Below, in pieces: positions 211-25,919 of a stretch of DNA of 29,140 nucleotides. Where the stretch lies: the IMG/VR virus record IMGVR_UViG_3300042905_001919, positions 1 through 29,140 of that record. One strand, given 5' to 3'. The position numbers and the translations under genes were made by a program. Origin of the DNA: a virus. Position 1 is the first letter of the stretch; every line of letters starts with the position of its first letter. The notes under the pieces are model-generated. The model searched no databases, had not been told where the DNA came from, and saw only the letters and a list, made by a program, of their open reading frames with translations.

Positions 211-1212
211 TCAAACTGCTGAGTCCCACTTAACGATGCGGGCATTCCGGCTGCTGGTCGCGGAATTGACTCCGTGAACTATGCCGAAACCTCCCAAATA
301 ATACCAAGCCACGCCTTTCGAGCGGCCATAGTCGGTCGGAATCTTGCCGCGCATTTCCTCGGGGCAGGCGATCGCTTCGGCCACGGTATCGGCGCCGAAG
401 AAGTAGCACCAGTCCGAGAAGCCGCCGTTCCATGCGTCCGCGGTGCGGGTAAAGGCATTCCAGGTCGTGGAGTCTGCCGCGCCGCCCTTCGGGATGTTGG
501 TCTGCTCGACGTAGCGCACGTTCTCGTAGCGCCCGATCTCGCCGTTCATGATCATCTGGAACCCCGCATCCGTGTAGGTGTGGATCGACTCCAGTTGGTT
601 CTTGAAGAAGCGATAGGTCGAAGGCCAGGCCAGTGCGTAGTAATCATCGCCGGAATACGCCGGGATGTTGCGCTCCTTCATCTCATCGACGATCAGCTTG
701 ACATGGCCGGTATTGAGCGCCTGCGAGTTCGTCGCGGTAGCCGTGCCGTTCGTGGTCAGGGTGATGGTAGTCGAGGAGGTGCCGACAACGCGCAGGGGGC
801 AGGAGTTGAACTGCGTAGCCGCAGCCGCGTCGAACCACTTGGAGGCGTCGTTCTTCAGCACCTTGTTGATGATGGTCTTGACCGGGTGCTGCGACAGGTC
901 ATCGAGCTTTCCGGAATACGGCACCGAGTTGCCCGCTTCGGTGATCGTCAGGGTTCCCTGGGTGATCGTGAAGTTGGTTTCCGGCATCGTGTTGGTTTCC
1001 GTCAGCGTCGAGCCGGCGGGGGTTGCGACGTCCTGGTACACGTCCCATAGGAAGGTGTCGCCCTTCTTCTTGCCCTGCTGCGTGGCGTCCTTGACGTCGC
1101 AGAACTGGCGGAACTTGGTCATCGGTTGAACGGCCATGCGGAGTTCGTCGGACAGGTTGTCCGAGTACATGTACCCGCCCAGCGAATTTACTGCCCATAC
1201 TTGTGAAGCCAT
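211..1212 (-). CDS. Major capsid protein, N4 gp56-like
   Basis: The 333-aa product is the probable major coat protein (HK97 fold) forming the icosahedral shell. Residues 223-239 read NGEIGRYENVRYVEQTN, the G-x-I-G-x-Y-x-V-R-x-V-E-x-T-N pattern near the C-terminal third of N4 gp56-type coat proteins; the length fits shorter members of that group. The start ATG at 1212 follows an excellent ribosome site (AAGGAG). It directly follows the scaffold gene with a 12-base gap, the usual scaffold-coat order. The only nearby gene downstream is the HNH fragment. The alternative is another HK97-fold coat family, since only motif and context support the call. Confidence 0.82.
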   Translation of the reverse strand: MASQVWAVNSLGGYMYSDNLSDELRMAVQPMTKFRQFCDVKDATQQGKKKGDTFLWDVYQDVATPAGSTLTETNTMPETNFTITQGTLTITEAGNSVPYSGKLDDLSQHPVKTIINKVLKNDASKWFDAAAATQFNSCPLRVVGTSSTTITLTTNGTATATNSQALNTGHVKLIVDEMKERNIPAYSGDDYYALAWPSTYRFFKNQLESIHTYTDAGFQMIMNGEIGRYENVRYVEQTNIPKGGAADSTTWNAFTRTADAWNGGFSDWCYFFGADTVAEAIACPEEMRGKIPTDYGRSKGVAWYYLGGFGIVHGVNSATSSRNARIVKWDSAV

Positions 1213-1224
1213 GATGTGTCTCCT

Positions 1225-2208
1225 TTATGCTGCCTGCCCCCGCTTCGCCCGCATGTCTTCGATGATCTGCGATGGCGTCTTGGCGGCCGGTGCTTGTGGG
1301 GTAGTCTTCCGGGCAGATGCCGCGGTAAGATTGGTGATGCCTGCCTTCTGGGTCCGTTTCTCTTCCAGGGTCGCCACCGGAACGCCGCCGCCACGCAGTT
1401 TGCGCAGTCCATCCCCGATTTCCGCGTAGAGTTCCCGACGGGAGCGTTTGTCCCCGTTGGCCCTCATGTGGTCCTCTTGGAGGCTGGCAAGCTGAAGCAG
1501 GTAGGGGTCGCTGGTGATGTCCTTGTAGGTAGTCTGGAACCATTCGGCCGATGATTGAAAATCAACCTTGTCGAGGATCCGCGCTTCGACGGTGCCGGCG
1601 ATCTGGTCGGGGGTAGCCATTTCCTGGCGCCCTCCCCTGATCTGGCGGACTGCCTCGGCCTTCTGTTCCTCGGTGCCATGCGCAAGCGCATAGGCGATGA
1701 TCTCCTCGTCCCATGCTTGGGGTGGAGGAGTGTTCTGAACGGGCGGCTTCGGGACGAACTGCTGTTCGACCTGGCGCAGCAACCGGGTAGCTTCCTCGAG
1801 CCGGCGGTCGGCGGACGATTCCTTCTGAACCGCACGGAGGCCGGCTTCGTAAATCTTGTCGCGTGAAACTTGCTGCATGACCCCGTCGACCTTGATGGTC
1901 ACGAGGTCTTCAATGGGTGCTGCCCCGGCCGGGGGGGTGGTTGTCTCGACGTCATCAGCGGAGGGGGCCGCATCTGCGGGAGGAGTCGCAGCGATGGTGT
2001 CGGGTTGATCCGGGGCCGGGGCAGCAGAAACGTCAGGGTTCGTTGTGTCAATCACTTCACCGCCGGCAGCCTTGATTTCATCGTCGCGCTCTTGCCTGAT
2101 CCTGGCCGTGATGTCTGCCATTGTCGCTTCGCGCTCAGTGGGGACGGGCGCCCCTTCGACTGCTGCCGGTGTTTCCACGCCCGGTTGGGTAGCGTTTTCG
2201 AGTTCCAT
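1225..2208 (-). CDS. Capsid scaffolding protein
   Basis: This 327-aa protein is acidic. Its first ~110 residues are rich in Pro, Ala, Thr and Asp and look disordered; a helical charged middle (about 115-270) follows, then a basic Ala/Lys/Arg tail ending near MRAKRGQAA. This composition, with a basic C-terminus able to contact coat subunits, is typical of phage scaffolds. The position immediately before the coat gene supports it. The ATG at 2208 has AAGGA upstream within the end of the preceding gene. No protease motif is visible, so scaffold removal would be by release or another protease. Confidence 0.75.
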   Translation of the reverse strand: MELENATQPGVETPAAVEGAPVPTEREATMADITARIRQERDDEIKAAGGEVIDTTNPDVSAAPAPDQPDTIAATPPADAAPSADDVETTTPPAGAAPIEDLVTIKVDGVMQQVSRDKIYEAGLRAVQKESSADRRLEEATRLLRQVEQQFVPKPPVQNTPPPQAWDEEIIAYALAHGTEEQKAEAVRQIRGGRQEMATPDQIAGTVEARILDKVDFQSSAEWFQTTYKDITSDPYLLQLASLQEDHMRANGDKRSRRELYAEIGDGLRKLRGGGVPVATLEEKRTQKAGITNLTAASARKTTPQAPAAKTPSQIIEDMRAKRGQAA

Positions 2209-2487: not shown

Positions 2488-2537
2488 TGACTATCCAGTG
2501 GAGGTTAGTTTGTAAGCAGTTGCAAGGATACGCTGTT

Positions 2538-3563
2538 TCATTTGGGAATCAAGTCTTTCAAGCCATATTCACCCGGCGCCCAAGGTTTCGCCCCGGTAGC
2601 CACCCCGTTGCGTTCAAGGATGCGGATCATCTCGGGATCAAATGCGACAAAGTTGCTTGAGCCTTGACCGGCAGAGCGTGATCCGCCGTCTAGGTAGCGG
2701 ATACCGGGGATGCCTGCTTGTTGTAGAACGGCACTAGCGTTTGCTTTTGCCGCACCATCTGCACCACCTCTCGACAGTTCGTTATAAGCCTGAGCGACTG
2801 TTCTAGGTTCTCCGTATATATTCGGCTGTTGGTTTCCAAATAGTGCGCGTTCTCCAACTCCCATCCTATTTATTGCCGCCTGCACTTCCGGTGCTTGCTG
2901 ACTCAGCGGCTTATCCCAATCCAGAAAGCGGGCTACTGCTTCGTCGGGGATGTCGGTTTTGTAGAGGTTGCTGCCGTGAATCGGAACATCCCCCGCAAGC
3001 AATTCAACAACCTTCTGCTGATGTGCTTTCGCCTCTGGCGTCAGATACGGCTTGATTCCAGCCTCCGCAACATCCTTTGCGACAGCGCGATCCTTGTACA
3101 TACGCAGCAGCATTTGCGCAGTGCCTTCCGGCCCCGGCACGGTCATCTTTGCGTACTCTTGCGCCACGCCGGGAGCTTCAGCCAAATACAACCCATGCCC
3201 ATACGCCTGCGCCCCCTCGCCCGTTCCAATCTTGTCTAGGCTGAACTTGTCGAACTTGTGCGGGGAACCGTGCCATGCGATCATCCCCACCGGCGCCACG
3301 CCAGCCGCCTGCATCATGGATTGATAGGCGTACTCCGCTTCCGGCGTCTGCTTGCCTGCCAACTGGTCAGCAAGCCCCGCCTGCGTCCGTTTGTGCCACG
3401 CCTGAAGGTCGCGCCCGATCTGGCTGTTGTCTGGGTCGGTGATGCCGCCTATGTATCGCGCTTGGTCGGCAACGGGTTGAGTCTCGGGATTCAATGAACC
3501 ACCCGGCAGCGCGTCCGTGACGTACTGCTTTCCCATTCGTATCAGGTCGGCAAGACTTGGCAT
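2538..3563 (-). CDS. Putative ADP-ribosyltransferase virion protein
   Basis: The 341-aa product has an ADP-ribosyltransferase-like core from about residue 94. AWHGSPHKFDKF supplies the first-strand His-Gly, and GEGAQAYGHGLYLAE supplies the conserved G-x-G-x-Y segment that packs on NAD. A later segment, GIPGIRYLDGGSR then SSNFVAFDPEMIRILER, matches the end of the domain seen in phage polyvalent ART proteins. I cannot place the catalytic Glu with confidence. The first ~90 residues are an extra region perhaps used for packaging. It lies between structural genes and has a good ribosome site (AAGGA) before the ATG at 3563. I infer a virion-carried enzyme that could modify host proteins on injection. 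Such domains are known in phages, but the target here is unknown. Confidence 0.65.
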   Translation of the reverse strand: MPSLADLIRMGKQYVTDALPGGSLNPETQPVADQARYIGGITDPDNSQIGRDLQAWHKRTQAGLADQLAGKQTPEAEYAYQSMMQAAGVAPVGMIAWHGSPHKFDKFSLDKIGTGEGAQAYGHGLYLAEAPGVAQEYAKMTVPGPEGTAQMLLRMYKDRAVAKDVAEAGIKPYLTPEAKAHQQKVVELLAGDVPIHGSNLYKTDIPDEAVARFLDWDKPLSQQAPEVQAAINRMGVGERALFGNQQPNIYGEPRTVAQAYNELSRGGADGAAKANASAVLQQAGIPGIRYLDGGSRSAGQGSSNFVAFDPEMIRILERNGVATGAKPWAPGEYGLKDLIPK

Positions 3564-3572
3564 GATCGTTCC

Positions 3573-4031
3573 TTACATCATCGACAAGAGGGCGGTTTCT
3601 TCGTCCTCTTCTTCTTGAATCTGCCCCATCAATCGCACGATGAGGGTCCGCATTTCGACTTCCGCTATCTCGGCTTCAATGTCCCGGTAGGTCTCTGCAA
3701 CCTGCTCCGTGATCGCCTCGGCAATGACCACCGGGGGCCGTTCGTGATGTTCTTCCTGCCATAGCGAAATGACCGCGCCGTAAATCGTTTTCTTGAGGAT
3801 GCGACGACGCCTGCTTTTCTTTCCACCCCCGCCACCGACAACCACGACATCTGGAATCGGCGGGACATATGGAACCCGGCCCGCAAATGAACCGCACCGC
3901 CGCGAACCATACCCGCCGCTTGAAAGCCTCGCCAATACCCCGACTGGGTGAGTCGGTGATTGAGCTTTTCCGGCAAACGATCCGCACTGCTTGACTCCGG
4001 ATCCGCCGCTACCGAGGCGAGTGATAGCCAC
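3573..4031 (-). CDS. Virion-block protein with duplicated CGSFAG motif
   Basis: This 152-aa protein starts at GTG 4031, within a TGATGTG junction with the preceding stop. Two short repeats, RLGSGGSGVKQCGSFAG and RLSSGGYGSRRCGSFAG, occupy residues 5-21 and 35-51. A Gly run (about 65-70), a very basic stretch KKSRRRR and an acidic helical C-terminus (QIQEEEDEE) follow. Phage structural blocks often contain small proteins with the TRLxxGGxxxxxxGSFAG motif; their function is unknown to me. The basic stretch could bind DNA. Confidence 0.65.
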   Translation of the reverse strand: MAITRLGSGGSGVKQCGSFAGKAQSPTHPVGVLARLSSGGYGSRRCGSFAGRVPYVPPIPDVVVVGGGGGKKSRRRRILKKTIYGAVISLWQEEHHERPPVVIAEAITEQVAETYRDIEAEIAEVEMRTLIVRLMGQIQEEEDEETALLSMM

Positions 4032-4032
4032 A

Positions 4033-5988
4033 TCAGGTTATGGTGAAAGTGTCGCCGGATACCGGGGCGTCGGTCAATGCGGTCACAGTCAGCACACCCA
4101 GCGCGGTGTTTCCGGTGATGTCCGACCCTTGGCCGCGCAGGTTTGCCGTTGTAGTGTCCTTGTCGAATATCAGGATGCGTCCCTTGTATTGGTCAATCAC
4201 CGCGGCGGCCGGAAGCAGGCTCGATGTGACAATGCTGGTGGTACTTGACGCCGCCCCTACAGTCCCGATGACGTTGCCCAACACAGCCCGCTTGAATGCG
4301 GTCAGCGCCGTTGTGTCGTTTCCGATGGCGCTTAGGTTGGAGTCCATGCGCCCGCCAACCAATGCGGCGGGCAACCTGGATTGAATGTCGTTCGTGTCGG
4401 CAAGAATGTTCGTTATGTCTGCCGTAGGGATATCTCCCACCGCTGCCGGGGCAGCCGGAATCAAATCAGTCTTGGCCTTGATGGCACCGACTTCCGTATC
4501 CACCGCCGCCAGTATCGCGGCCACTTCGGTATCGAGAAAGTCATCAATCGTGGTGACACTGGCCTGCGTAGCGAGAGCAGTAAGCCCCGCCCCGGCTGCG
4601 CCAATCTCTGCGGTGTCGATCAGGATTGCCGCGATACTGGCATTGTCCGGGGCCGTGTAGCCGACTGTTGCGAGGCGGCTAGATACCGTGGCATTGAGAT
4701 TGTCGCCGACGATCTTTCCGGCTGTCCCCGCACCGTAAGCGCCTGGAATCGCAACGCCCCACGGATCACCGGCAGCACTGGCGGACGAGAGCGCGGCACC
4801 TGTTGAACCTGCCCCGGCGTGTCCTGCAATTGCCTCATCCCATACAGCATCAGCCACGGCGGCAGCCGTCGGGATGTCCGACACGGCAGCAGGAGAGGCA
4901 GGCAGGTTGTCCGTTTTAGCCTTGATCGCGGAAACTTCAGTGTCAACGGCGGCGAGGATCGCGGCAATCTCGGTATCAAGGAAATCGTCGATGGTATTGA
5001 CGCTGGCCTGAGTAGCGAGAGCAGTCAAGCCGGCGCCGGCAACTCCAATCTCGGCAGTATCGACCAGGATCGCATCGACCACTCCATCGACTATGGCGAG
5101 GTTCGCAGCAGAGGCCAGTGCCGTCAGGCCCGCGCCTGCGACACCGATTTCAGCAGTATCCACAAGGATGGAATCGACAACCGTGTCGACCGTTGCCAGT
5201 GCTGCTGCCGTGGCGAGGACTGTCAAACCTGCGCCTGCCGCTCCGATTTCAGCGGTATCGACAAGAATCGCGGCGATACTGGCGTTGTCCGGGGCGGTGT
5301 ATCCGGCGGTGGCTAGCCTGCTGCTTACCGCGGCATCGATGTTTGTTTCCACCAATAGCCCATAACTGCCTGCCGCGCCGTAGGTTGCTGTGGCCGCGTT
5401 CCATACCGAATCCGCTACAACTGCCGTAACATCGGCCGCGATAGCCGCGTCCGTGATGGTGTTTGCCGCCATCGCGCCAACGCTGGAATCCATGCGACCA
5501 CTGACTAGGGCCGCGGGCAGGCGCGTCTGAATGTCATCCAGATCAGCTTGTATCGTGGTGAGTGCGCCGGCATTGGGGATCGCATCAGTGACGGCCTTGA
5601 TCGCCGAAATTTCCGTATCAAGGAAATCATCGATGGTATTCACGCTGGCCTGCGTTGCCAGTGATGTAAGCCCTGATCCTGTCGCCCCGATCAGCGCGAA
5701 GTTGTCGCCGGTCTGCGGGAAGGAAGTGAATACCTGCACCGTTGCCGGAACCGCGCCGGTTCCGGTGAAGGTGAATCCAATAATGTCGTAATTCGTTTCG
5801 GCCTGAGCCGGTGCGTAGGTGTGGTATCCGTTGCCCTCATGGGTACAGGCACCAGAACCGACAGAACCCGCCGCCTGCGTCCCCGCGTCCCCGGTGACAT
5901 AGACCGTCACCGAGCCGGTGAAGGCGCTGCCGTCCGTCGCGCTGACAAGTTGCGCGCCGATCTTCTGACTTGCTACGTTCTTTTTCAT
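4033..5988 (-). CDS. 651-aa modular repeat protein, probable tail or head appendage
   Basis: I chose the start at ATG 5988 because GGAG precedes it by six bases; an upstream in-frame extension lacks this. Residues 1-100 look like a beta-rich domain (MKKNVASQKIG..., GNGYHTYAPAQAETNYD). Residues 105-550 are built from Ala-rich repeats. DTAEIGxAGAGLTxLA occurs four times (about 244, 278, 310, 458). QASVxTIDDFLDTE occurs three times (113, 327, 475). SSRLATxGYTAPDNASIAAIL occurs twice (222, 437), and DIQxRLPAALVxGRMDS twice (153, 534). The tail (551-651) has a beta-rich end with ILIFDKDT. Such repeats are common in phage tail or fibre proteins. The exact virion location is unknown. Confidence 0.7.
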   Translation of the reverse strand: MKKNVASQKIGAQLVSATDGSAFTGSVTVYVTGDAGTQAAGSVGSGACTHEGNGYHTYAPAQAETNYDIIGFTFTGTGAVPATVQVFTSFPQTGDNFALIGATGSGLTSLATQASVNTIDDFLDTEISAIKAVTDAIPNAGALTTIQADLDDIQTRLPAALVSGRMDSSVGAMAANTITDAAIAADVTAVVADSVWNAATATYGAAGSYGLLVETNIDAAVSSRLATAGYTAPDNASIAAILVDTAEIGAAGAGLTVLATAAALATVDTVVDSILVDTAEIGVAGAGLTALASAANLAIVDGVVDAILVDTAEIGVAGAGLTALATQASVNTIDDFLDTEIAAILAAVDTEVSAIKAKTDNLPASPAAVSDIPTAAAVADAVWDEAIAGHAGAGSTGAALSSASAAGDPWGVAIPGAYGAGTAGKIVGDNLNATVSSRLATVGYTAPDNASIAAILIDTAEIGAAGAGLTALATQASVTTIDDFLDTEVAAILAAVDTEVGAIKAKTDLIPAAPAAVGDIPTADITNILADTNDIQSRLPAALVGGRMDSNLSAIGNDTTALTAFKRAVLGNVIGTVGAASSTTSIVTSSLLPAAAVIDQYKGRILIFDKDTTTANLRGQGSDITGNTALGVLTVTALTDAPVSGDTFTIT

Positions 5989-6084
5989 GCTGCACTCCAT
6001 CAAGAGAGCGTTTGAATTTCTGGCCCACGCTGAAACAAATCCACCTGGCGGCGCTGCGCCTGCACCTGGTAGCGCGGATACTGG

Positions 6085-6103
6085 CGACTCTGATAGGGAG
6101 TCG
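6085..6103 (-). other. Small hairpin before the 651-aa gene
   Basis: CGACTC (6085-6090) pairs with GAGTCG (6098-6103) across a 7-base loop. It lies in the 126-base gap after the 128-aa gene. There is no T-run after it, so it is not a classic terminator; it may be an RNA-processing or attenuating hairpin, or chance. Confidence 0.3.
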
Positions 6104-6114
6104 TGGCCTAACAC

Positions 6115-6501
6115 TTAAACCTCGAACCGCCAATCGTAGGCGAGGAGCTCTTCCCTTGTGGTGAGACTCGAAACGATGTCTCTCTGCTTCCCCGCGTTCC
6201 CTGCGATCAGGGCTTCCATGTACTCGTACCCTTGAGCGTTGGCAATGACCTTCTCCACCAATAGATCAAGCGGAATTCCGCGTGTGTCTGCCTCAATCTG
6301 AAGCATCGGGCCGCCACCGGCTTTGGCTTCAGCGAGTTTCAACGGCCATGCTGCGAGTTCCGGCGATGGAAGTCCAGCGAGCTTGATTCGCTTGCTTGCA
6401 GCATAAGCGTCGATATACCCCTTGATGATTGACTTGATTACGGCCAAATCATCGGTTTCAGGGTCGCCACCGTTGTAACAGTCGTCAGTAAAAATTAACA
6501 T
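6115..6501 (-). CDS. 128-aa virion-block protein, unknown function
   Basis: The product is mixed and soluble: it begins MLIFTDDCYNGGDPETDDL and has a helical middle with a Gly/Pro-rich turn. A good ribosome site (GAAGGA) precedes ATG 6501. It sits between a glycine-rich protein gene and the 651-aa repeat protein gene. I do not recognise the family. Context suggests a tail-assembly or chaperone role, which is only a guess. Confidence 0.6.
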   Translation of the reverse strand: MLIFTDDCYNGGDPETDDLAVIKSIIKGYIDAYAASKRIKLAGLPSPELAAWPLKLAEAKAGGGPMLQIEADTRGIPLDLLVEKVIANAQGYEYMEALIAGNAGKQRDIVSSLTTREELLAYDWRFEV

Positions 6502-6511
6502 GTTTGTTCCT

Positions 6512-7366
6512 TCAAAATGCGACGATCATGCAATAGCCGGGGCCACCTAGCCCCCCCCCGCCGGGAGTGCCAGAGGCAGCATTACCACCGCCCCCACCAC
6601 CGCAACCGATAGCGCCATCGCCACCTTTGGATAGTCCGGTTCCTGCGCCATTCACGCCTCCACCACCCGAACCGCCTACGCCGCCAAAAGGTTGTTTCAA
6701 GCCGAACCCCGGAAGGCCCGGATTGTGTCCGGTTGCCGCGCCTGCGATGGTCGGGAATATCCCTGCTCCCGTTACATCGCCGCCTGTGCCGCCCGATGAA
6801 CCACCGCCACCGCCTCCACCCGTTAGGGGAAGCGTTCCGAGTGCGGTTACTGCTGCTCCGTTGGTTGTGGAGCCTGCGCCGCCGGATGCACCAGCTTGGG
6901 ATGTCCACAAGGCAAGAGTTCCTGAAAATCGAGCAACAGAATTAAGCATTGCCGCTGCTCCACTTCCAGCCGTTCCATCAGCACCCCCGATTCCACCTAA
7001 AGCATTTAGTCTTACTATGCAGCCTTGCACGGGGGCATTAGGGGTTATTGCAACGTGAGTCGAAAATGCGTCTCTGTCTCCTGGGATGGTTACGTATAGG
7101 AAGGGGGGAAGTAAGCAAACCGGGCAGAGTGCCTTAACAATTGCTCCGGAGCCACCACCACCACCACCAGATGTTGCAGCACCTACCACTGGAGTACCGC
7201 CAGTTCCACCACCGGCAATCAAAACGATATATAAAAATGTCGCCCCTTTTGGGATCGTATACAGTTGACTACTAGCAGGGTGTAAACCATTAGAATATTG
7301 TTGTCCAACAAATTCATCCACCTGAATGACGTTGATGTGCTTCGGGAGATGGTTAAAGCCCCACAT
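6512..7366 (-). CDS. Glycine-rich tail or adhesin protein, copy 2
   Basis: The 284-aa product has an N-terminal ~60-residue domain (VIQVDEF..., YTIPKGATFLYIVLIAGGG). Long glycine-rich segments then alternate with short hydrophobic stretches, ending GGPGYCMIVAF. It is a clear paralogue of the next gene upstream, sharing SGGGGGGSGAI, GTLPLTGGGGGGGSS, VTGAGIFPT and the same C-terminal ending. Glycine-rich sheets of this kind occur in phage tail adhesins that bind receptors. The start ATG lies just after the TGA of the upstream copy (TGATATG) with no clear ribosome site, so translation is probably coupled. Confidence 0.7.
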   Translation of the reverse strand: MWGFNHLPKHINVIQVDEFVGQQYSNGLHPASSQLYTIPKGATFLYIVLIAGGGTGGTPVVGAATSGGGGGGSGAIVKALCPVCLLPPFLYVTIPGDRDAFSTHVAITPNAPVQGCIVRLNALGGIGGADGTAGSGAAAMLNSVARFSGTLALWTSQAGASGGAGSTTNGAAVTALGTLPLTGGGGGGGSSGGTGGDVTGAGIFPTIAGAATGHNPGLPGFGLKQPFGGVGGSGGGGVNGAGTGLSKGGDGAIGCGGGGGGNAASGTPGGGGLGGPGYCMIVAF

Positions 7367-7367
7367 A

Positions 7368-8303
7368 TCAAAACGCGATAATCAGCGCGTACCCGTGCCC
7401 GCCCTGACCACCGCCTCCTGCGTTTGAGCCTACGGCAGCATTTCCACCACCACCACCGCCACAACCGAGCGAACCGTTTCCACCTGTTCCGCCAGAATGC
7501 GCCGCGCCTGTCGTTCCACCACCACCCGAGCCGCCAATGCCGCCCCACGGCTGTTCGATGCGCCATCCGTGCTGTCCGTTGCCTGCGGTCGCGCCTGCAC
7601 CGGATGCGCCGCCTGTCATCGTCGGGAAGATACCCGCGCCGGTCACGTTTCCGCCCGTGCCGTTGCTTGAGCCACCGCCGCCAGCGCCGCCCGTCAGAGG
7701 AAGCACAGACAGAGCTGTAACCGCTGAACCATTAGTCGCTGATCCCGTGCCGCCAATCACTCCGACTTGAGCCACCCAAGCTGCAAGAGAACCTGACCAG
7801 ATTCCCGCTGTAGCAGCAAAGACCACTCCCGCCGCTCCCGCAGTTGTAGCAACAGCGCCACCACCCCCGCCGTTGGCAAGTAGGATCACGTTCGCCGCTG
7901 CAATCGTTCCCGTAGGAGGTTGAGTAGGCCCGATCAATGCAGTTACACCGCCTGCGGTTCCCGCCGTGCCTGCGCCCGTTCCTGCGGCTGTACCTACCCC
8001 ACCACGCCCGACCATGACATATAGCGTTTTTGGCAGCATGGCGGTCATCAACAGGGCTTTGGTAATCGCTCCAGACCCGCCACCCCCACCGCCTGCTGTA
8101 GCGGCTCCGGGAGTCGGCCTGCCACCCGCACCACCTCCACCAACAAGCATGACGTACAGAAACGCCGCGTTTCTCGGAACGGTGTATGGGTACATCGCAT
8201 CCGTACCCGTCAGGACTCCCGTTGCCGCCGAAGTAAAGGGAGTCTTGAACTCGACTATCTGGATAGCCGAATTGACGGGAGGCGTGAGGCCGAATCCTTC
8301 CAT
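7368..8303 (-). CDS. Glycine-rich tail or adhesin protein, copy 1
   Basis: The 311-aa product begins MEGFGLTPPVNSAIQIVEF and continues YTVPRNAAFLYVMLVGGGGAGG. Gly-rich segments with GGGGGGSGAITKALL, VTGAGIFPTMTGGASG and a C-terminal GGGGQGGHGYALIIAF follow. It is the tandem homologue of the gene just downstream. The ATG follows the previous stop directly (TAAATG). The Gly-rich repeats resemble receptor-binding adhesins; the shared ~60-residue N-terminal part may anchor both copies to the same virion structure. Confidence 0.7.
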   Translation of the reverse strand: MEGFGLTPPVNSAIQIVEFKTPFTSAATGVLTGTDAMYPYTVPRNAAFLYVMLVGGGGAGGRPTPGAATAGGGGGGSGAITKALLMTAMLPKTLYVMVGRGGVGTAAGTGAGTAGTAGGVTALIGPTQPPTGTIAAANVILLANGGGGGAVATTAGAAGVVFAATAGIWSGSLAAWVAQVGVIGGTGSATNGSAVTALSVLPLTGGAGGGGSSNGTGGNVTGAGIFPTMTGGASGAGATAGNGQHGWRIEQPWGGIGGSGGGGTTGAAHSGGTGGNGSLGCGGGGGGNAAVGSNAGGGGQGGHGYALIIAF

Positions 8304-8759
8304 TTAGTAATCGCCGCCAAAAGTCGTGACCATGTAGTAGGTGTTGGCATTGGCAACAACACCCGTACAGCAAAGGAGGTACTTTCCTGTCTCCAGTGCG
8401 AAGTTCAAAGGAACGATGAAGTCAGGACTCGCCGAGGTAGTTGCAGGGGTGATCGTCGGGATAGCGACTTCGGCAATCATCCGTGTGTTCGCGCTTGACG
8501 TTGCTCCACTGGAAACCGTCGAGATGAAAAACCGGATTGTCGTTGCCGCAACAGCAGTCGTTCCGTTGGTTGTGGCAATCTTGATCCGCGCTTCCTTGAC
8601 GTAGGAACCGTTGGCGCCAGGCGTGAAGGCGATGTAATGCGTCACCGTACCACCGGAGACAACGAAACCCACACCGTCAGTACCGGCACAGACAAGTACC
8701 GGAACGCAGGATTCAACGTGCGGCGTGAGGGTGTAGATGGGTTCTTTGTTCGCAGGCAC
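8304..8759 (-). CDS. 151-aa beta-rich virion protein, unknown
   Basis: This is a Thr/Ala/Val-rich, probably all-beta protein (for example GTVTHYIAFTPGANGSY and TRMIAEVAIPTITPATT). It starts at GTG 8759 behind a strong ribosome site (AAAGGAGA). It sits between a 117-aa beta protein and the glycine-rich adhesins. A jelly-roll-like head decoration or tail knob is plausible, but I do not recognise the family. Confidence 0.6.
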   Translation of the reverse strand: MPANKEPIYTLTPHVESCVPVLVCAGTDGVGFVVSGGTVTHYIAFTPGANGSYVKEARIKIATTNGTTAVAATTIRFFISTVSSGATSSANTRMIAEVAIPTITPATTSASPDFIVPLNFALETGKYLLCCTGVVANANTYYMVTTFGGDY

Positions 8760-8771
8760 GGCAGTTCTCCT

Positions 8772-9125
8772 TTAAGGCATGGGTGCTGATTTCGACATGG
8801 CAAGCATCTTGCCCGTCATGTTCAGGAAGTACGATGCGGTTGCATCCACGAAGATCGTATGCGTACCGACAGACAGGTTGATGGCGTTGTTCGAGTTGCT
8901 TGATTTACGGACAAACGTGCGCTTGAAGTTCGTTGCCGTCGAGAGATACCCTGTTCCGGTTTCCCAATCCACGCCGTCAGCATCGACCAAGACATAAGCG
9001 CAATAGATGTTCTGCCCGATGGCATTGTTGATGGTCTGAAACTGCGCCACCGCACCGGCAGTCGTGATGTCACCTGTGCCGGTTGTGGTGGTTGTTTCTT
9101 TAGCGCGGTCTGCTAGGGCGTCCAT
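8772..9125 (-). CDS. 117-aa virion-associated protein
   Basis: The protein begins MDALADRAKETTTTTGTGDITTAG and continues with beta-strand-rich sequence (YCAYVLVDADGVDWETGTG). The opening DRAKETTTTTGTGxIT is a pattern I associate with small phage structural proteins of unknown role. It follows the portal gene by 13 bases, and GAGG lies upstream of the ATG. It probably belongs to the head-tail region. Confidence 0.6.
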   Translation of the reverse strand: MDALADRAKETTTTTGTGDITTAGAVAQFQTINNAIGQNIYCAYVLVDADGVDWETGTGYLSTATNFKRTFVRKSSNSNNAINLSVGTHTIFVDATASYFLNMTGKMLAMSKSAPMP

Positions 9126-9138
9126 TTATTACGAATCC

Positions 9139-11484
9139 TCAAGTCTGTTCGATACGAATCTGCTTCCCGTTCGAAAGCGTCCCGATCTTCGGGCGGGACT
9201 GCAACTCGACCGCCTTCTGGATGGCGCCAAGGATGGCCGTCTGTGATGCCGCTGTGTCGGTCTGCTTGCTGGCCTGCTCGATCAATGCGCCGCTGAATAT
9301 CTGTAAGGCTTCCTGCTGCGCCTGGGTGACTCCGGCGAACAGTTCCGCGATCTTGTTTGCTTCCTGATCTGCGGATCCATCGTCCGGGACTTCGACCGTC
9401 TGAAGTTTCGCCATGATCTCGGACATAGCGGCTTCAAGCTGTAGGGCTGCCGTGTTGATCTTGGCCGTTGCTTCATTGGCGGCGGCGTTGGTCTTGGTGA
9501 CCAGCAATTCCTGACGGAGCCGCAGGGACTCGTCCTCGGCAATGCCGCGGGCCTGCATGGCCTGTTCGTCAGACGTTAGCTTGGCGCTCTGCAGCTTCAG
9601 GTCGGCCAGCATCTTCTCGAGGCGCCTGCCTTCCTCCTGAATCGCCTGCTCCCGCTGCATGACTTCGCCCTTGGCCTCTTCGACCATCTGCGTAGCGCCC
9701 TTGATGACCTTTTCGATCTGCTGATTGGTCTCGTCATCGACCATGAACCGGCCGCCGTCACGATAGCCGGCCAGGCCGAATACCTCTTTCCCGACTTCCT
9801 TCATGTCCAGGCTTGGCAGTTCCATCTGCGCGACTGCGGAGTAAGCCTGCATGGCACCCATGAATCGGCCGAGCTTCTGGTCCGGATTGGTGGCGCCCAT
9901 GCCGACATTCACCGACAGGGTGAGTTCCTGCCCGAGCAGTTCGTCGTTGATCTCGGAAACGCCGTAGGTCTCTATGAGTTTGGCCTGACTGGCGGCGATC
10001 GCCAGAATCACTTCGTCGGTCTCGTACTTCTGTTCCATCTTGACCAACTGCCGCAGGACAGGCTCCACCCATGTCTCGGTGAAGGTCCGCAGGGTGTATT
10101 CCGTGATCTGGTTCGCGGCGTTGGAGATCATCCCCATCCCGCCGACGGTTTCGTTCATCTTGCGGTTCGTCATGATCGAACCTTGAGAGAAGTTCCCCGT
10201 CAGTTCGTCGTAATCGACGTTGATGCGGTCCTGCTCTTGATACGAGGATCCGGTGACGTCGTTGAACTCGACCTCGCGCACATCCCCGCTCACATCGTTG
10301 GCAAGGGTCACGGACCCCGGCACGTTGCGCACCAGCGACTTGATATCGACCTGGGCGCCTCGCTTTACAATGTATCGCTTGTTTAGTACCAATTTGACAT
10401 TGTCGAGGCGCTGATTCACGACCTCGTTGGCCTCGCGCTGCAACTGCTCCCCGAGCATCACCGGGGAATCGGGCATGACCTTGTGAGTCTCGACCACGCA
10501 GCAACCCATCACAATCGGGCGTTCTCCGGTGAAATAGACCTCGGCCAAGGGCTTCGCGTCGGTCAGCATGAACTCCGTGCCGAGGGTGTAGAACACCATC
10601 TCTTCGCCATCGACGCGCATGAAGTTCTCATGCACCCAGACGATCTCGTAGTCACCGATGGCCGTGTTTCCGGGGTCTTTGCTGTCCTGCCGGTTCTGTT
10701 CGCGGGTCTGGGCGGTCGAGTCGTTGTCGTTCTTCATGGCCGACTTGATCTGGCCGTCATCCAGGGTCTTCCACTTCGGCGCCTGGGTCTTCTGATCGAT
10801 GTTCGCCATCATCGCCTTGACGTCGCAGACGTACATCGGGACGAGGCGAATCACATACGGGCTGGATTCAATCGGGTTGATCCATGACGCGCCCGGGTCG
10901 ATGCGGATGTTTTCCACCGGCATCAGTTCGATGCACGGCTGATCCTTCTTTACCACCGTGCGGGGACGTTCGACAAGCATCGGCTTGCCGTCGGCGCCAA
11001 TAAACGGATTGCCGAACTCGTCGGCCATCGTTTCGTATTCCATCACCGACTTGGCTTCGTACTTCCAATATTGGTACGAACACGCAACCCCGACCGTCAT
11101 GCAGTCCTGCATTGCTCCTACAAGCGTCAGGAACCACGGAATCGTCTTGGTCAGGCGGTAGTTGATGACCTCTTTCCACAGGTCTGCGCTGGCGGCCTGG
11201 TTGCGGTCGTTCTGATTGACCGCAGCGGTGGAGATTACGTCGAGGTTGCTGAAGAACGCCGCCGCTGCAGCCGCTTCATGCTTGCGGACCAATGATCGGG
11301 ACTTCGGTCGGAATATCTTGCTGCGGTGTTTGTAGGCGTCGGACAGGTACTTCGAATCTTGAGGATGCCGGCTTTGGAACATCCGGAGGCCGTCTTCCCA
11401 CTTCTTGCGGTAGTTGGCATCGACGTAGCTTGTCGAGGATTGGTGGGCGTCTTTCGCCAGTTGGAGCCAGTTTGTCTCGGCCAT
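9139..11484 (-). CDS. Portal protein
   Basis: The 781-aa product is the probable dodecameric portal through which DNA is packaged and ejected. Its length suits large podovirus portals. The N-terminal half has a conserved-looking core (DVISTAAVNQNDRNQ, PWFLTLVGAMQDCMTVGV, ELMPVENIRIDPGA). The middle contains VNQRLDNVKLVLNKRYIVKRGAQ and MNETVGGMGMISN. Residues about 590-710 are a long charged coiled coil (EEAKGEVMQREQAIQEEGRR onward), and the C-terminal ~70 residues are Gln/Ala-rich. It lies downstream of the terminase genes. The ATG overlaps the preceding stop (TGATG). I cannot separate N4 gp59-like from other large portal families by eye. Confidence 0.8.
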   Translation of the reverse strand: MAETNWLQLAKDAHQSSTSYVDANYRKKWEDGLRMFQSRHPQDSKYLSDAYKHRSKIFRPKSRSLVRKHEAAAAAAFFSNLDVISTAAVNQNDRNQAASADLWKEVINYRLTKTIPWFLTLVGAMQDCMTVGVACSYQYWKYEAKSVMEYETMADEFGNPFIGADGKPMLVERPRTVVKKDQPCIELMPVENIRIDPGASWINPIESSPYVIRLVPMYVCDVKAMMANIDQKTQAPKWKTLDDGQIKSAMKNDNDSTAQTREQNRQDSKDPGNTAIGDYEIVWVHENFMRVDGEEMVFYTLGTEFMLTDAKPLAEVYFTGERPIVMGCCVVETHKVMPDSPVMLGEQLQREANEVVNQRLDNVKLVLNKRYIVKRGAQVDIKSLVRNVPGSVTLANDVSGDVREVEFNDVTGSSYQEQDRINVDYDELTGNFSQGSIMTNRKMNETVGGMGMISNAANQITEYTLRTFTETWVEPVLRQLVKMEQKYETDEVILAIAASQAKLIETYGVSEINDELLGQELTLSVNVGMGATNPDQKLGRFMGAMQAYSAVAQMELPSLDMKEVGKEVFGLAGYRDGGRFMVDDETNQQIEKVIKGATQMVEEAKGEVMQREQAIQEEGRRLEKMLADLKLQSAKLTSDEQAMQARGIAEDESLRLRQELLVTKTNAAANEATAKINTAALQLEAAMSEIMAKLQTVEVPDDGSADQEANKIAELFAGVTQAQQEALQIFSGALIEQASKQTDTAASQTAILGAIQKAVELQSRPKIGTLSNGKQIRIEQT

Positions 11485-12297: not shown

Positions 12298-13920
12298 TCA
12301 CGAATCTGCGTAATGCTCCGGCTCGAGCGCGCCATCCTCGATCAAGACGGGTGGCCTTGGGTCAAGATCATACACGCGGCTGGCGGCATCAATCAAGTCC
12401 TTCAGCGGGGCGAATGGATAGAACATAACCTGTTCCTTGAACTGCCTGGTCAGATCGTAGATGTTCCCGTCCGAGTCCTTTTTGCGGATTGGCTTGGCGA
12501 TCCGGTACGGCTGGCCGGCGTCTTTCACCACGGATTGATGGCTCGTAAGCTGCGGGCAGTCCTTCGGCACGAAGAACTTGTGCGACCTGAAATCCGGCCC
12601 GAGGCGCTGCACCCGGTCATCCTTTGACCCCTCACCATCCCGCGGCCACTTCAACTCGACAATTGGGAAGCTGTTGGTCTCGACCTCCATGCGCTCGTAG
12701 AAGTAGTCGAGATCGGCCTGGGCGCCAAAGGCTTCGTACCCGACCGAGATCATCTGAACGCCGGGCTGGTTGAGCCAGATGCGCCGCATGTCCTTGACCG
12801 CGGCCCATCTGTCTGACAGGTTCATCCGGTGATTCACGCCGTCCAGCAGGTACTTGTTGCGCGCCGAGTCAATGCCGATCACCGCAATGGCCGTGTTGGC
12901 GCTGCCCTTCTTCATACTGCGCGCCGGATCCACCAGGATATAGATGTTCAGGGTCGCCGGCCGAACTTCGAACTCCTGCAGGTCGGTGACGTCGAACATG
13001 GCCTGCTGGCCGGCGATGGGGTTCTGCAGTTGCTGGCAGGCTATTGTTTGTGGGCCTTGGTCAATCTTTTTCTTTGCCCACTGCGCGGGGGTCAGGAGTA
13101 CGGGGTTCCCGTCTTCGTGTCCATTGTCAGTCGCCGGGTAAATTCGTGGCTGCAACGCCTTCCGTTCCAAGATGGCGCCGTATGTGTCAGCGAATGAATA
13201 CCTGGTGCCAATCGTCCATCTGCGTCCGTCAGCGGTGCCAAGGTTGTCGCTCAACTCCCACGCCTCGGTTGTTTTCTGCACCTGTTCTGGAGTCGTGACA
13301 CTCTCCCTCGTCACAACGTCATCGTAAATCCGCAACTGGTAGTGCTTTGACGTCGGCTGACCATCCACAAGTCCCCACGCCTCGATAGTGGCCTCTTTCG
13401 GGTTCGACTGCCTCTTTACCGTGATCCCTGTTTCAATCGACCAGACCGGGGCATCCTTTACCGGGTTGTCCCACAATATCGACGGGTACAAGGCGACCAG
13501 GTTCTTGTTGCTCTCAAACTCACGTTTGATCTGCGTCAAAAACGCCTTGGCTATCGGCCTGGTGTGGCTGAACAGCCCGATGGTGATTTCTTGGTTGTTC
13601 AGTATCTCCTGGATGCTGCCGGCGTAGGTAATGATGGTGCTTTTCCTGTGGTCGCGCGCCCACAAGTCCAAAAACTCATTCGGGGCGGCCTCTACCTCCC
13701 GGCACCTGGCGTACAGCCACGGATGAATAATATCCAAACGCTTGAGTAGGTGGGTAAGCAGGAAAAACCTATCGCCGGCCCCGATCGCGGCCAGTTCCTC
13801 ATCACCGCATCCCGGGGTATGGTAAAGGTCATCGTAGAAGTCCAGCGCGTCATCCATCGACGCACCCTTCAACCAGTCAAGCGCCTTGCTGACGAAGTCG
13901 CCGGTACTCGATGAACTCAT
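12298..13920 (-). CDS. Terminase large subunit
   Basis: The 540-aa product is the packaging motor ATPase and nuclease. An adenine-site and Walker A-like segment, LWARDHRKST, sits at about 86-95. Walker B, LRIYDDVV, is at about 196-203. The RNase H-like nuclease begins with YILVDPARS (Asp331), followed by GVNHRMNLSDRW and GYEAFGAQ. Length and order fit large terminases. It follows the small-terminase and HNH genes; its first 44 bases overlap the 3' end of the HNH gene. The start is ATG 13920, with ATG 13857 as an alternative lacking that overlap. The two-domain architecture is convincing; the mechanism (headful or cohesive-end) cannot be read here. Confidence 0.88.
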   Translation of the reverse strand: MSSSSTGDFVSKALDWLKGASMDDALDFYDDLYHTPGCGDEELAAIGAGDRFFLLTHLLKRLDIIHPWLYARCREVEAAPNEFLDLWARDHRKSTIITYAGSIQEILNNQEITIGLFSHTRPIAKAFLTQIKREFESNKNLVALYPSILWDNPVKDAPVWSIETGITVKRQSNPKEATIEAWGLVDGQPTSKHYQLRIYDDVVTRESVTTPEQVQKTTEAWELSDNLGTADGRRWTIGTRYSFADTYGAILERKALQPRIYPATDNGHEDGNPVLLTPAQWAKKKIDQGPQTIACQQLQNPIAGQQAMFDVTDLQEFEVRPATLNIYILVDPARSMKKGSANTAIAVIGIDSARNKYLLDGVNHRMNLSDRWAAVKDMRRIWLNQPGVQMISVGYEAFGAQADLDYFYERMEVETNSFPIVELKWPRDGEGSKDDRVQRLGPDFRSHKFFVPKDCPQLTSHQSVVKDAGQPYRIAKPIRKKDSDGNIYDLTRQFKEQVMFYPFAPLKDLIDAASRVYDLDPRPPVLIEDGALEPEHYADS

Positions 13921-17856: not shown

Positions 17857-17923
17857 GCCGAACCCATCATTCCAGGGGAGCTTCGCCAAAAGCGGCTCAT
17901 CCCCCTGAATTCAGACGTTGGCA
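17857..17923 (+). repeat. attC-like site of cassette 1
   Basis: R'' is GCCGAAC (17857-17863) and the junction R' is GTTGGCA (17917-17923). Arms ATTCCAGGGG and CCCCTGAAT pair with one extra C on the left arm, the usual mark of the attC top strand. The inner part pairs AGCTTCGC with GCGGCT loosely. Length 67 bp. Confidence 0.75.
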
Positions 17924-18687
17924 GGCAAAAGCATGTCGCCCTGCACCGCCGTATCGCCAGCGCCGACTTTTGGCGCAGCGAACATTTGCTCTTGTGCTTG
18001 AGCACCCGTCACCCGAGGCACCGCGATTCCGTGGAAATATTCGTGCTCTCGCTCAATCCCGATAAATCGCCGCCCTTCCAAGTGCGCCGCCTCGCCAGTG
18101 GTTCCGCTCCCCATGAAGCAGTCCAAAACCGTGTCGCCTGCGTCCGTGGTCAGCCGTATCAGGTGCCGCATCACGTCCACCGGCTTCTCTGCCGCGTGCG
18201 CCGTCGTCTTGCTGTTTCCGGCCATCCAGCGGCAGCGGTAAATGTCGCTCGCGCTCCGGTTGTCTATCTTGGCGTCTGGCATTCCGGCAAAAAGCACAAC
18301 CTCGTAAGTCGGGCGCAGTTGGCGCGGCCCTGCCGGGCCGATCCACTCCTTGTCCCAAATCATCAGCGAGTCCACTTGCCATTTCACCTTGGCAAACGCA
18401 TAGAGCAGTGTCGGCAGGCTGCGCCAGTTGCCGAAGACACAAGCAAACCCGTCTTGCTTCAGTGCGCGCCGCGCCAGCTTCAGCCATTCGGCGTACCACC
18501 ACGCGCTGTTTTCCATGTCCGCCCATCCGCCAGCCTTCGCGCTTGCGTCGCCGGTCGAGATCGCGCCAATCATGTATGGCGGGTCGGTTATCACCGCATC
18601 CACGCTCATCGGCGGCAATTCCGCCATTACTTCCAGGCAGTCGCCTTGCCACAGTTCAGCGTTACCGATTTTCACTTTCTCAGCCAT
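17911..18687 (-). CDS. Cassette 2 gene: DNA methyltransferase, DPPY type
   Basis: The 258-aa product would transfer methyl from AdoMet to the exocyclic amino group of adenine or cytosine. The catalytic motif TDPPY is at 34-38, and KPVDVMRHLI (168-177) is the motif X region. The AdoMet site DTVLDCFMGSGTTGEAA is at 185-201. Catalytic before AdoMet motif means beta-group order. ATG 18687 is chosen over 18690 and GTG 18693 because GGAG lies five bases before it. The C-terminus (LPANV) runs into the attC site, where the crossover AAC is read as Asn. No restriction partner is nearby, so protection from host restriction or regulation is inferred. Confidence 0.85.
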   Translation of the reverse strand: MAEKVKIGNAELWQGDCLEVMAELPPMSVDAVITDPPYMIGAISTGDASAKAGGWADMENSAWWYAEWLKLARRALKQDGFACVFGNWRSLPTLLYAFAKVKWQVDSLMIWDKEWIGPAGPRQLRPTYEVVLFAGMPDAKIDNRSASDIYRCRWMAGNSKTTAHAAEKPVDVMRHLIRLTTDAGDTVLDCFMGSGTTGEAAHLEGRRFIGIEREHEYFHGIAVPRVTGAQAQEQMFAAPKVGAGDTAVQGDMLLPANV

Positions 18688-18712
18688 CATCACTCCGTAG
18701 TTACGTTTTGCC

Positions 18713-18782
18713 TGCCAACCCGTCGCTCAAGCGGGACGCGCCGCGATAAGGCCGCGTCGCGCCCCTTAGCTATGCGTTAGGC
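18713..18782 (+). repeat. attC-like site of cassette 2
   Basis: R'' is TGCCAAC (18713-18719) and the junction R' is GTTAGGC (18776-18782). The left arm GCTCAAGCGGGACGCG pairs with CGCGCCCCTTAGC, leaving C, C and A unpaired on the left. Its R'' pairs perfectly with the cassette's own 5' end (GTTGGCA), as expected for the circular cassette. A 21-base stretch (18717-18737) is identical in the cassette 5 site. Confidence 0.85.
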
Positions 18783-19372: not shown

Positions 19373-19396
19373 GCGCCTGTTACCTCAGCGTTAGAC
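19321..19396 (+). repeat. attC-like site of cassette 3
   Basis: R'' is GCCTAAC (19321-19327) and the junction R' is GTTAGAC (19390-19396), both exact matches to RYYYAAC/GTTRRRY. Arms GGTCAACACGGACGCC and GGCGC...TGTTACC pair with the same extra C on the left. Length 76 bp. It contains the ATGA stop-start junction of two cassette genes. Confidence 0.85.
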
Positions 19397-19833: not shown

Positions 19834-19883
19834 TTCGTCCAACGCGGACGCCCTACGGGCGCCGGTTAACTCCACCGTTCGGC
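19825..19883 (+). repeat. attC-like site of cassette 4, 59 bases
   Basis: R'' is GTCTAAC (19825-19831) and the junction R' is GTTCGGC (19877-19883). The left arm CGTCCAACGCGGACGCC pairs with GGCGCCGGTTAAC around CTAC. The layout is very close to the well-known class 1 integron 59-base elements, including the CGGACGCC...GGTTAAC arms. Confidence 0.88.
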
Positions 19884-24426: not shown

Positions 24427-25290
24427 ATGGAAACGACAACCACCCCGACCGCAGTTGCGGTTCAGCGCGCGGCGCCGGCATTCAGCCTCGCGCCCCGCAA
24501 CCTGACAGAGGCAATGGAGTTCAGCAAGTTGATGGCCTCGAGCGAACTGGTCCCCAAGAACTTCAAGGGCAAGCCCGGTGACGTCCTGATCGCGGTCCAG
24601 ATGGGCGCCGAGGTCGGTCTCGCGCCGATGGCGGCCATCCAGAACATTGCCGTGATCAATGGCAAGCCCGGACTCTTCGGTGATGCTGGCAAGGCCATCC
24701 TTCTGGCGGCCGGCGTGACCATCGAGGAAGACGATATGGAACTGATCCAGAAGTCCGGCATGGCGCGCTGCCGCGTCACCCGTCAGGGGCGCCCGCCGGT
24801 CGAGCGCACGTTCTCGATCGACAACGCCAAGACTGCCGGCCTCTGGAACAAGGAAGGCCCATGGCGCAGTTACCCCTACCGGCAGATGGCCTGGCGCGCC
24901 TTCTGGTTCGCCGCGCGCGATGCCGCGTCCGACCTGCTCAAGGGTCTGGGCGGCGCCGAGGAACTGGTGGACATTGAACCGCGCGAGATCAATCCTCGCC
25001 CGTCAGGTGCTGCCGTCGCCGCGGCCGCCGCCGAGGTTGTTGCGCCGCGCGATGATGCCACCCTGTCGAAGATCGCAGACCTCGAGGTTGTCGCCAAGGA
25101 GCAGGGCCGCAAGAAGTTCCGCGAGACTTGGGCCGCCATCGACCCGGCAGTCCAGAAGGTGATCGGCATTGAGGAGCGCAACCGCATCGACAAGATGGCC
25201 GGCGATGCCGACGAGGCGCGCACGGTCGAGGGGCAGGCAACCGTGGTGACCGATGCGGCCGCCGATCCGGACGGGAGTTACCCGGGATGA
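24427..25290 (+). CDS. RecT-family ssDNA-annealing protein
   Basis: The 287-aa product contains RNLTEAMEFSKLMASSELVP, FKGKPGDVLIAVQMGAEVGL, PMAAIQNIAVINGKPGLFG and a central NKEGPWRSYPYRQMAWRAFW with FAARDAASDLLKGL. This order is the core of RecT-type single-strand annealing proteins, which pair homologous strands during phage recombination. A Pro/Ala-rich linker (about 195-215) leads to a C-terminal helical part. The following gene encodes the exonuclease partner, the classic RecET/Red-like pair. The ribosome site is AAAGG. Confidence 0.82.
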   Translation: METTTTPTAVAVQRAAPAFSLAPRNLTEAMEFSKLMASSELVPKNFKGKPGDVLIAVQMGAEVGLAPMAAIQNIAVINGKPGLFGDAGKAILLAAGVTIEEDDMELIQKSGMARCRVTRQGRPPVERTFSIDNAKTAGLWNKEGPWRSYPYRQMAWRAFWFAARDAASDLLKGLGGAEELVDIEPREINPRPSGAAVAAAAAEVVAPRDDATLSKIADLEVVAKEQGRKKFRETWAAIDPAVQKVIGIEERNRIDKMAGDADEARTVEGQATVVTDAAADPDGSYPG

Positions 25291-25919
25291 GCGAGATCAT
25301 CGAACAATGCAGCGCCGCATGGCATACGCTCCGGTGCGGCAAATTCACCGGCTCGAGGTTTGCCGAGGTGATCGCCCGCAACAAGAAGACCGGCGAGAAA
25401 CTCAAGGCATGGGATGAGCTGGTCTGGGAGATTGCCGCCGAGCGTTTGACCGGCACCCAGGACGCAGGGATCGACGCCTATGCACTCCGTTGGGGCCGCG
25501 AGGTGGAACCGTATGCCCGACAGGCTTACGAGGCCGCCACCGGTCATTTCGTTGATCAGGTGGCCTTCATCGTGCATCCGACCCTCCCCTTCGTTGGGGT
25601 CAGTCCGGACGGTCTGGTCAATGACGATGGCGGCCTCGAGATGAAGGCTCCAAAGAATAGCGTGATCCACCTCCAACGGTTCGATACCGGAGTGCCGGAT
25701 GAGTACACCCCGCAAATCCAAGGATGTATGTGGGTGACCGGCCGCGCCTGGTGGGACTTCGTTTCCTACGATCCGCGCCAACCCGAGAAACTCCGCTTGC
25801 TGCGCCTCACTGTGAAGCGTGACGATGCCTATATCGCCAAGCTTGAGGCAGCCGTGATCGAGGCAGAAACAGCAGTGCAAGCAATCGTGTCCAAATTCGA
25901 GAGGAGAATGGCAGCATGA
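25287..25919 (+). CDS. YqaJ-type viral recombinase exonuclease
   Basis: The 210-aa product has WHTLRCGKFTGSRFAEVIA at the N-terminus, then ALRWGREVEPYARQAYEAATG. The PD-(D/E)xK core is SPDGL (Asp108) and LEMK (Glu118, Lys120), followed by IQGCMWVTGRAWWDFVSYDP. This matches the lambda exonuclease/YqaJ family, a 5'-3' double-strand exonuclease that makes 3' tails for the RecT partner. It starts by ATGA overlap with the recT-like gene. The catalytic triad is intact. Confidence 0.85.
   Translation: MSEIIEQCSAAWHTLRCGKFTGSRFAEVIARNKKTGEKLKAWDELVWEIAAERLTGTQDAGIDAYALRWGREVEPYARQAYEAATGHFVDQVAFIVHPTLPFVGVSPDGLVNDDGGLEMKAPKNSVIHLQRFDTGVPDEYTPQIQGCMWVTGRAWWDFVSYDPRQPEKLRLLRLTVKRDDAYIAKLEAAVIEAETAVQAIVSKFERRMAA

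Follow-up and report, generated by a model that had tools for sequence, protein, structure and literature searches.

A viral ADP-ribosyltransferase gene from a family with a constant core and exchanged inserts

The window analyzed here, the full 29,140 bases of a virus record in IMG/VR, carries a minus-strand gene for a 341-residue protein resembling ADP-ribosyltransferases (ARTs). This protein is a stand-alone relative of ART-PolyVal (PF18760), and its ART core bears an H-Y-N signature distributed over three conserved blocks. Across the family, the two inserts between these blocks have been exchanged as whole segments between phages, each being conserved once acquired, and the leaders that precede the core can bear a different effector domain. 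A constant core with inner segments that are swapped whole suggests a weapon aimed at host cells and built by mix and match. Altogether, we read the window gene as encoding an ADP-ribosyltransferase of the ART-PolyVal type that stands alone, is combinatorial in build, and is probably delivered by the virion, an account to which we give a probability of roughly 0.6.

An earlier note, made from the letters of the window alone, had pointed out an ART-like gene at this location. The gene is genuine, and the three stretches quoted in that note are all present (HGSPHKFDKF starts at residue 98 and FVAFDPEMIRI at residue 305, and GAQAYGHGLYLAE runs up to residue 129). The resemblance to ARTs is not due to chance, because it is borne out by a Pfam match, by relatives in viral contigs at ~50% identity, by invariant residues, and by a structural model that matches ARTs. 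The architecture of the gene had been missed; it runs from a leader through block 1 (H98 and Y126), insert 1, block 2, and insert 2 to block 3 (N304) (Table 1). Also missed were the accessory island in which the gene lies, the H-Y-N signature, and the swapping of the inserts.

Fold and active-site signature

The Pfam family ART-PolyVal matches the window protein with an E value of 1.8e-5 and a score of 25.9 bits; the curated cut-off is higher, at 31.2, and is passed by the related proteins of loci L060 (32.4) and L026 (32.9) and not by those of L001 (26.2) and L010 (30.0). NCBIfam returned no match. A sequence search of the PDB with the window protein, up to an E value of 10, gave citrate synthase as its sole match (E value of 1.7), and a search with a 45-sequence profile gave none over the same range. 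Plain Foldseek against the PDB produced no row at an E value of 0.001 or below, the best being 9k3a_B at 1.5e-3. Since sequence searches of the PDB yielded no ART, only fold comparison revealed the relationship there.

An AlphaFold2 model of the protein (m737f02b81089), built from 45 sequences, has a predicted local distance difference test (pLDDT) score of 77.9. In a comparison with the PDB, the matches listed, which span model residues 90 to 321, were ARTs or ART-fold toxins, together with a chain from the A4 ejectosome. This chain, 9k3a_B of the cyanophage A4 pre-ejectosome, was the best match (Z of 10.8 over 154 residues at 4.1 Å), followed by tankyrase, diphtheria toxin, and ParT at Z of about 7.6 to 7.7. 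The model of a second allele with an unrelated insert 1 likewise matched ARTs (9k3a_B, Z of 10.7; ParT, 8.6). Given that most Z values lie between 7 and 8, agreement among the rows counts for more than any one of them. Against predicted viral proteins, the window model had 39 matches at an E value of 0.001 or less, several of them named ART-PolyVal-like. The structure prediction called for by the earlier note thus supports its proposal of an ART fold encoded as a separate gene. Polyvalent proteins carry 2 to 15 domains; here only ART-PolyVal and a weak DUF3990 match were found, both on the same stretch of the 341 residues. No MuF match was detected with Pfam at E values up to 1, a sensitivity below which a remote relative may fall.

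Positions H98, Y126, D292, S295, R296, and N304 are among those invariant in all 45 aligned sequences. The first two correspond to the conserved strand-1 His and strand-2 Tyr of the ART superfamily, while the fifth main strand starts at N304, with D292 lying before it. Across the family, 358 of 368 parsed domains have the H-Y-N triad; the others are QYN (8), TYN (1), and HNG (1). ART-PolyVal was described with H, Y, and a strand-5 Asp in the part of that account considered here (Iyer et al. 2017, PMC5512222), and on the same partial basis it resembles the window protein in sequence, fold, strand-1 H, strand-2 Y, and phage setting. The window protein differs in standing alone at 341 residues and, in an alignment made by eye, in having Asn (N304) where the family prototype, which is the vRNAP of Roseovarius Plymouth podovirus 1 (RPP1), has Glu. 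Nor does the window protein have the R-S-E active site given for Alt/VIP2 ARTs in the same portion of PMC5512222.

An ART scaffold that has lost catalysis and serves as a structural or ejection protein would fit both this Asn and the best structural match, since the A4 chain is a structural ejectosome protein. We consider such a protein quite unlikely: the six residues invariant in 45 of 45 sequences are unlike a decayed site, and the gene is absent from the fetched stretches of all 47 viral loci that encode a related major capsid protein, so that it is probably dispensable for assembly.

Exchange and conservation of the inserts

Family members were dissected by profile-based parsing, which recovered 368 domains (308 unique) from 393 open reading frames (ORFs). 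It superseded a regular-expression parser that lost many domains, parsing 84 of 175 loci, later 127 of 298 loci (104 unique cores), and only 5 of the 60 ARTs behind one common leader (leader B, below). Inserts were scored as the same at 60% identity or more and as unrelated below 35%. The pair counts that follow are not independent events, as one exchange inherited by several contigs is counted repeatedly, and contigs fetched under two locus ids were merged only if their cores were identical.

Among 345 pairs with leaders at least 60% identical, insert 1 was the same in 31, unrelated in 307, and intermediate in 7, while insert 2 was the same in 172, unrelated in 145, and intermediate in 28. 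The nearly empty middle range for insert 1 indicates replacement, since gradual divergence would populate it. One phage lineage represented by six contigs (L026, L035, L041, L047, L057, and L060) illustrates the pattern. Long stretches of these contigs mostly show 85 to 92% identity to L047, some parts being more divergent; all share the leader and the blocks (in four of the six, also insert 2 and the C terminus), but insert 1 is different in every one. Inserts of seven close pairs showed no nucleotide or any-frame similarity beyond short chance-level matches, save for the first 26 nucleotides in L026 and L057.

The converse combinations also occur. Insert 1 is shared (at least 60% identity) by 82 pairs, 35 of which have an unrelated leader and insert 2; insert 2 is shared by 429 pairs, with leader and insert 1 unrelated in 24. 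Where both leaders had at least 40 residues, 25 of 33 pairs sharing insert 1 had no nucleotide similarity outside the ART gene over the available loci. L051 and L060, for example, have 465 bp in common at 91% identity, from the start of block 1 to the end of block 2, and elsewhere only 54 nucleotides inside block 3. Furthermore, insert 1 of L047, a protein of 371 residues, is 71% identical to that of L056, a protein of 1,650 residues, which indicates that stand-alone and polyvalent forms use one pool. Because the blocks are conserved everywhere, matches that end at blocks cannot locate the crossover points. The pool is large, with 223 insert-1 clusters at 40% identity among 308 cores, and lengths range from 34 to 163 residues for insert 1 and from 40 to 121 for insert 2 (104 unique cores).

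The window gene follows the same design. It aligns with its nearest relatives at the nucleotide level in the three blocks only, the remainder of those loci being unaligned. Informative codons of block 2 are identical at 23 of 23 positions in L008 and 22 of 23 in L002; the corresponding values against L008 are 25/31 for block 1 and 23/31 for block 3, and block 3 is 95.5% identical to that of L002 over 111 nucleotides. A fully degenerate pattern for the block 2 core peptide and a near-exact nucleotide pattern hit the same 12 stretches. Insert 1, which is unrelated between most close relatives within the family, resembles in the window those of L021 (36%) and L054 (31%, both as identity times coverage), while the leaders and insert 2 of these two loci have no match to those of the window.

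It is very improbable that the mosaics arose in metagenome assembly, through chimeric joins at conserved blocks. The blocks are near-identical in nucleotide sequence across contigs and so are the type of repeat able to mislead assemblers, but alleles recur in independent samples. L002 to L007 are six contigs with one allele; L383/L388 and L389/L395 share insert 1 pairwise, all four leaders being 96 to 99% identical; L051 (3300037507) and L060 (3300022179) come from different samples; and L123, from a cultured strain, shares insert 1 with L163.

Shared inserts are under purifying selection once acquired. Among pairs chosen at a minimum of 60% amino acid identity, and thereby biased toward conserved ones, the median ratio of nonsynonymous to synonymous divergence (dN/dS) was 0.10 for insert 1 (47 pairs, maximum of 0.33) and 0.12 for insert 2 (226 pairs, maximum of 0.49), and pN was lower than pS in all 72 and all 418 pairs, respectively. 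In L494 and L502, the insert-1 protein sequence is 94% identical at a pS of 0.6. The variable lengths of both inserts might suggest unconstrained spacers, a notion already disfavored by these dN/dS values and by the confident helices of insert 1 in the window, and one that we scarcely credit.

Two origins for the inserts were considered and rejected. A diversity-generating retroelement does not fit inserts that differ in length and appear to have no common template. A frameshift origin was dismissed when tblastx on the seven close pairs gave two short matches only, one of 11 residues on the opposite strand (L041/L047) and one of 9 residues at the insert edge (L026/L057).

Two irregular ART-like stretches were seen among the relatives. 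A 68-residue ORF, L009:7989-8195, has only block 3 and the C terminus and is either a remnant or a rearranged copy, and the L016 contig has a second weak ART match (G004:C1:997-1248; E value of 6.4e-9) in a 505-residue frame of the same virus record.

Leaders, delivery, and the possible role of the inserts

Two leaders are common among the relatives. Leader A occurs in 80 ORFs, 57 with an ART and 23 without, several of the latter being leader-only (about 88 residues) or truncated by contig ends; leader B occurs in 81 ORFs, 60 with an ART and 21 without. Ten ART-less ORFs of each kind were scanned with Pfam, and some have LPD23 or GNAT domains; some have an HExxH stretch recognized by eye. These are domain types of polyvalent proteins. 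Leaders A and B thus show the conserved leader and exchangeable effector domain that characterize polymorphic toxins, MuF-toxin fusions included; the difference is that here the catalytic core is constant and inner segments are swapped. The window leader is modeled with pLDDT mostly between 45 and 76 before residue 90. It resembles leader B of L053 only weakly, at 30% identity in a forced alignment, and is for that reason not claimed as leader B. Three 88-residue ORFs (L406:3453-3719, L407:3974-4240, and L419:1325-1591) consist of leader A and almost nothing more.

The earlier note had stated that such domains often lie inside very large proteins in other phages. This is true, but the stand-alone form is common too, with 133 complete ORFs of 250 to 480 residues, in 84 lineage clusters, among 298 ART loci (a count that includes duplicate loci from single contigs). 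For stand-alone ARTs, 80 downstream and 79 upstream neighbors were scanned, and terminase (TerL and TerS) and portal families rank among the commonest named ones. Downstream these are portal phrog_156 (6), phrog_12082 (5), and phrog_1216 (3) and TerS phrog_309 (6), and upstream TerL phrog_2 (8) and phrog_979 (4) and portal phrog_1216 (4); the families overlap, and the tallies are therefore not summed. The relative in Sulfitobacter phage phiGT1, gene 5 (locus_tag phiGT1_5), precedes the scaffold gene by two genes.

Known phage proteins offer precedents for delivery. The A4 pre-ejectosome protein has its ART-like fold (chain B of 9k3a, residues 1418 to 1604) in an internal virion protein, although that chain exceeds 1,000 residues and is 13% identical to the window protein. 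T4 Alt and its relatives (Alt/VIP2) are injected head ARTs, which we adopt as the working model for the window protein as well. For ART-PolyVal itself, virion delivery was proposed from genomic context in the portion of Iyer et al. (2017, PMC5512222) drawn on here, and a 2022 survey of viral NAD+-ADPr systems, in the part considered, places phage ARTs beside head genes and proposes head packaging (PMC9503650). As far as that part goes, its phage ARTs are of the same gene kind and in the same neighborhood as ours.

Virion carriage of the window ART is therefore plausible, given the neighbors, the A4 match, and leaders shared with effector domains of the polyvalent type. Alternatively, the protein could be expressed late, along with the structural genes, as an ordinary ART or NAD+-consuming enzyme of the cytoplasm that stays unpackaged and acts in the producing cell. 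Methyltransferase, ParB, and integrase families also adjoin stand-alone ARTs, which agrees with this alternative. We nevertheless regard it as rather unlikely, as the closest match in structure resides within a virion, terminase and portal families often turn up nearby, and the leaders are common to other effector domains.

If the ART is delivered with the virion, the leader would direct it into the head or ejection complex; the core, entering with the DNA, would use NAD+ to modify host molecules; and the helical inserts would determine which target is hit or protect the enzyme against inhibitors of the host. Recombination in or beside the conserved blocks may bring about the exchange, and the window has genes for a RecT-like annealing protein and an exonuclease that we suppose to be candidate machinery for exchange at short homologies. 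Tentatively, at a little under even odds, specificity cassettes for an injected ART are interchangeable and form a pool common to phages, with three slots (leader, insert 1, and insert 2) around a constant H-Y-N core, the cassettes being recombined between unrelated phages and also between stand-alone and giant polyvalent proteins. It is also conceivable, but in our view unlikely, that the inserts vary to evade host recognition or inhibitors with the target constant. The loop before N304 (D292, S295, and R296) is invariant in 45 of 45 sequences while insert 1 changes, and the very large insert-1 pool would suit evasion.

Several points weigh against our preferred account of a virion-delivered, combinatorial ART. 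Asn in place of the Glu of the prototype means that catalysis may differ or be lost. A second ART allele was found in none of the 47 capsid-related loci of the window's own lineage, so that swapping is demonstrated for relatives and not for this phage, and the cassette evidence comes almost entirely from metagenomic contigs. The support from neighboring genes is partial, in view of the methyltransferase, ParB, integrase, and endolysin families seen there too. Presence in the virion and use of NAD+ by the window protein are inferred, and target choice by the inserts, unproven, seems to us slightly less probable than its opposite.

Type I restriction specificity subunits, HsdS, have conserved blocks that flank exchangeable recognition segments. 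The comparison is one of analogy only; HsdS is an unrelated protein, and no homology is claimed. If the inserts do form a specificity pool, a phage could change the target of its weapon without changing the enzyme, in the way that DNA-recognition segments are exchanged in HsdS. That phage ARTs near head genes are injected had already been predicted. A constant core with two whole-swapped, selected cassettes suggests a specific, testable answer to how phage ARTs keep pace with their hosts. Exchangeable inserts under purifying selection are a trait of the present family absent from the portion of PMC5512222 considered. ART inserts are treated as structural elaborations in the part of PMC9503650 drawn on, and its main text contains neither "hypervariable" nor words that start with "recombin". 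A literature search, which missed most papers in subscription journals, found none on cassette exchange in ART-PolyVal. Alleles whose main difference is insert 1 already occur in nature (L388 and L395, for example), making the role of the cassette testable without design, and the leaders provide a handle for finding further effectors, possibly virion-carried.

The accessory island and the rest of the window

On the minus strand, the order of genes is TerL, portal, a run of accessory genes, ART, an 87-residue gene, a scaffold-like gene, and the major capsid gene. Of the 47 capsid-related loci, 40 also show the portal gene, and the distance from portal end to capsid start is 1.19 to 2.97 kb in 39 of these, 5.9 kb in L341, and 7.9 kb in the window. 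The enlarged gap of L341 holds other genes and no ART. The longer gap, together with the lack of an ART in the 47 relatives, identifies the ART as an accessory gene, placed at the end of an island that faces the scaffold. The earlier note was thus right to place it among head genes as far as position goes, but the gene is part of the accessory island that separates portal from scaffold, not of the core head block.

Table 1. Positions of the ART gene, its parts, and other features of the window
Feature	Positions	Strand	Basis or remark
ART gene	2538..3563	-	ATG start, 341 amino acids, stop codon included in coordinates; ORF, ART-PolyVal match (E = 1.8e-5), ART fold
N-terminal leader, residues 1-97	3273..3563	-	Mostly low-confidence helices; differs among relatives
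Block 1, residues 98-129 (H98 ... GTGEGAQAYGHGLY126)	3177..3272	-	Nucleotide-conserved with relatives; H98, Y126 in 45/45
Insert 1, residues 130-199, swapped cassette	2967..3176	-	Four predicted helices, pLDDT mostly 79-96
Block 2, residues 200-223 (LYKTDIPDEAVARFLDWDKPLSQQ)	2895..2966	-	Codon identity with L008, L002
Insert 2, residues 224-283, second swapped cassette	2715..2894	-	Comparison with relatives
Block 3, residues 284-318 (GIPGIRYLD292..S295 R296..N304 FVAFDPEMIRILE)	2610..2714	-	D292, S295, R296, N304 in 45/45
Accessory island, ~6.6 kb	2488..9138	-	Portal to the 87-residue gene preceding the scaffold; ART is the member nearest the scaffold
Major capsid gene	211..1212	-	
Scaffold-like gene	1225..2208	-	By position and phiGT1 annotation of the syntenic gene
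Portal	9139..11484	-	
TerL	12298..13920	-	
RecT-like annealing protein (24427..25290) and exonuclease (25287..25919)	24427..25919	+	PHROGs, E = 7.2e-47 and 8.6e-41

Other members of the island include a 693-residue protein of degenerate ILVDTAEIGAAGAGLTALATQASVNTIDDFLDTE-like repeats (positions 4033 to 6114, minus strand), for which blastp detected no relation to the 724-residue gene in the island of L341. Two adjacent glycine-rich proteins (6512 to 7366 and 7368 to 8303, minus strand) are alike in make-up, have weak matches to tail-protein PHROGs, and are probably paralogues. Beyond the head genes, two DNA methyltransferase-like ORFs (17911 to 18693 and 18770 to 19372, minus strand) each cover only part of their PHROG profile; beside them lie an acetyltransferase gene (19369 to 19875) and a Mom-like DNA modification gene (20193 to 20663), which together make up a DNA-modification cluster.
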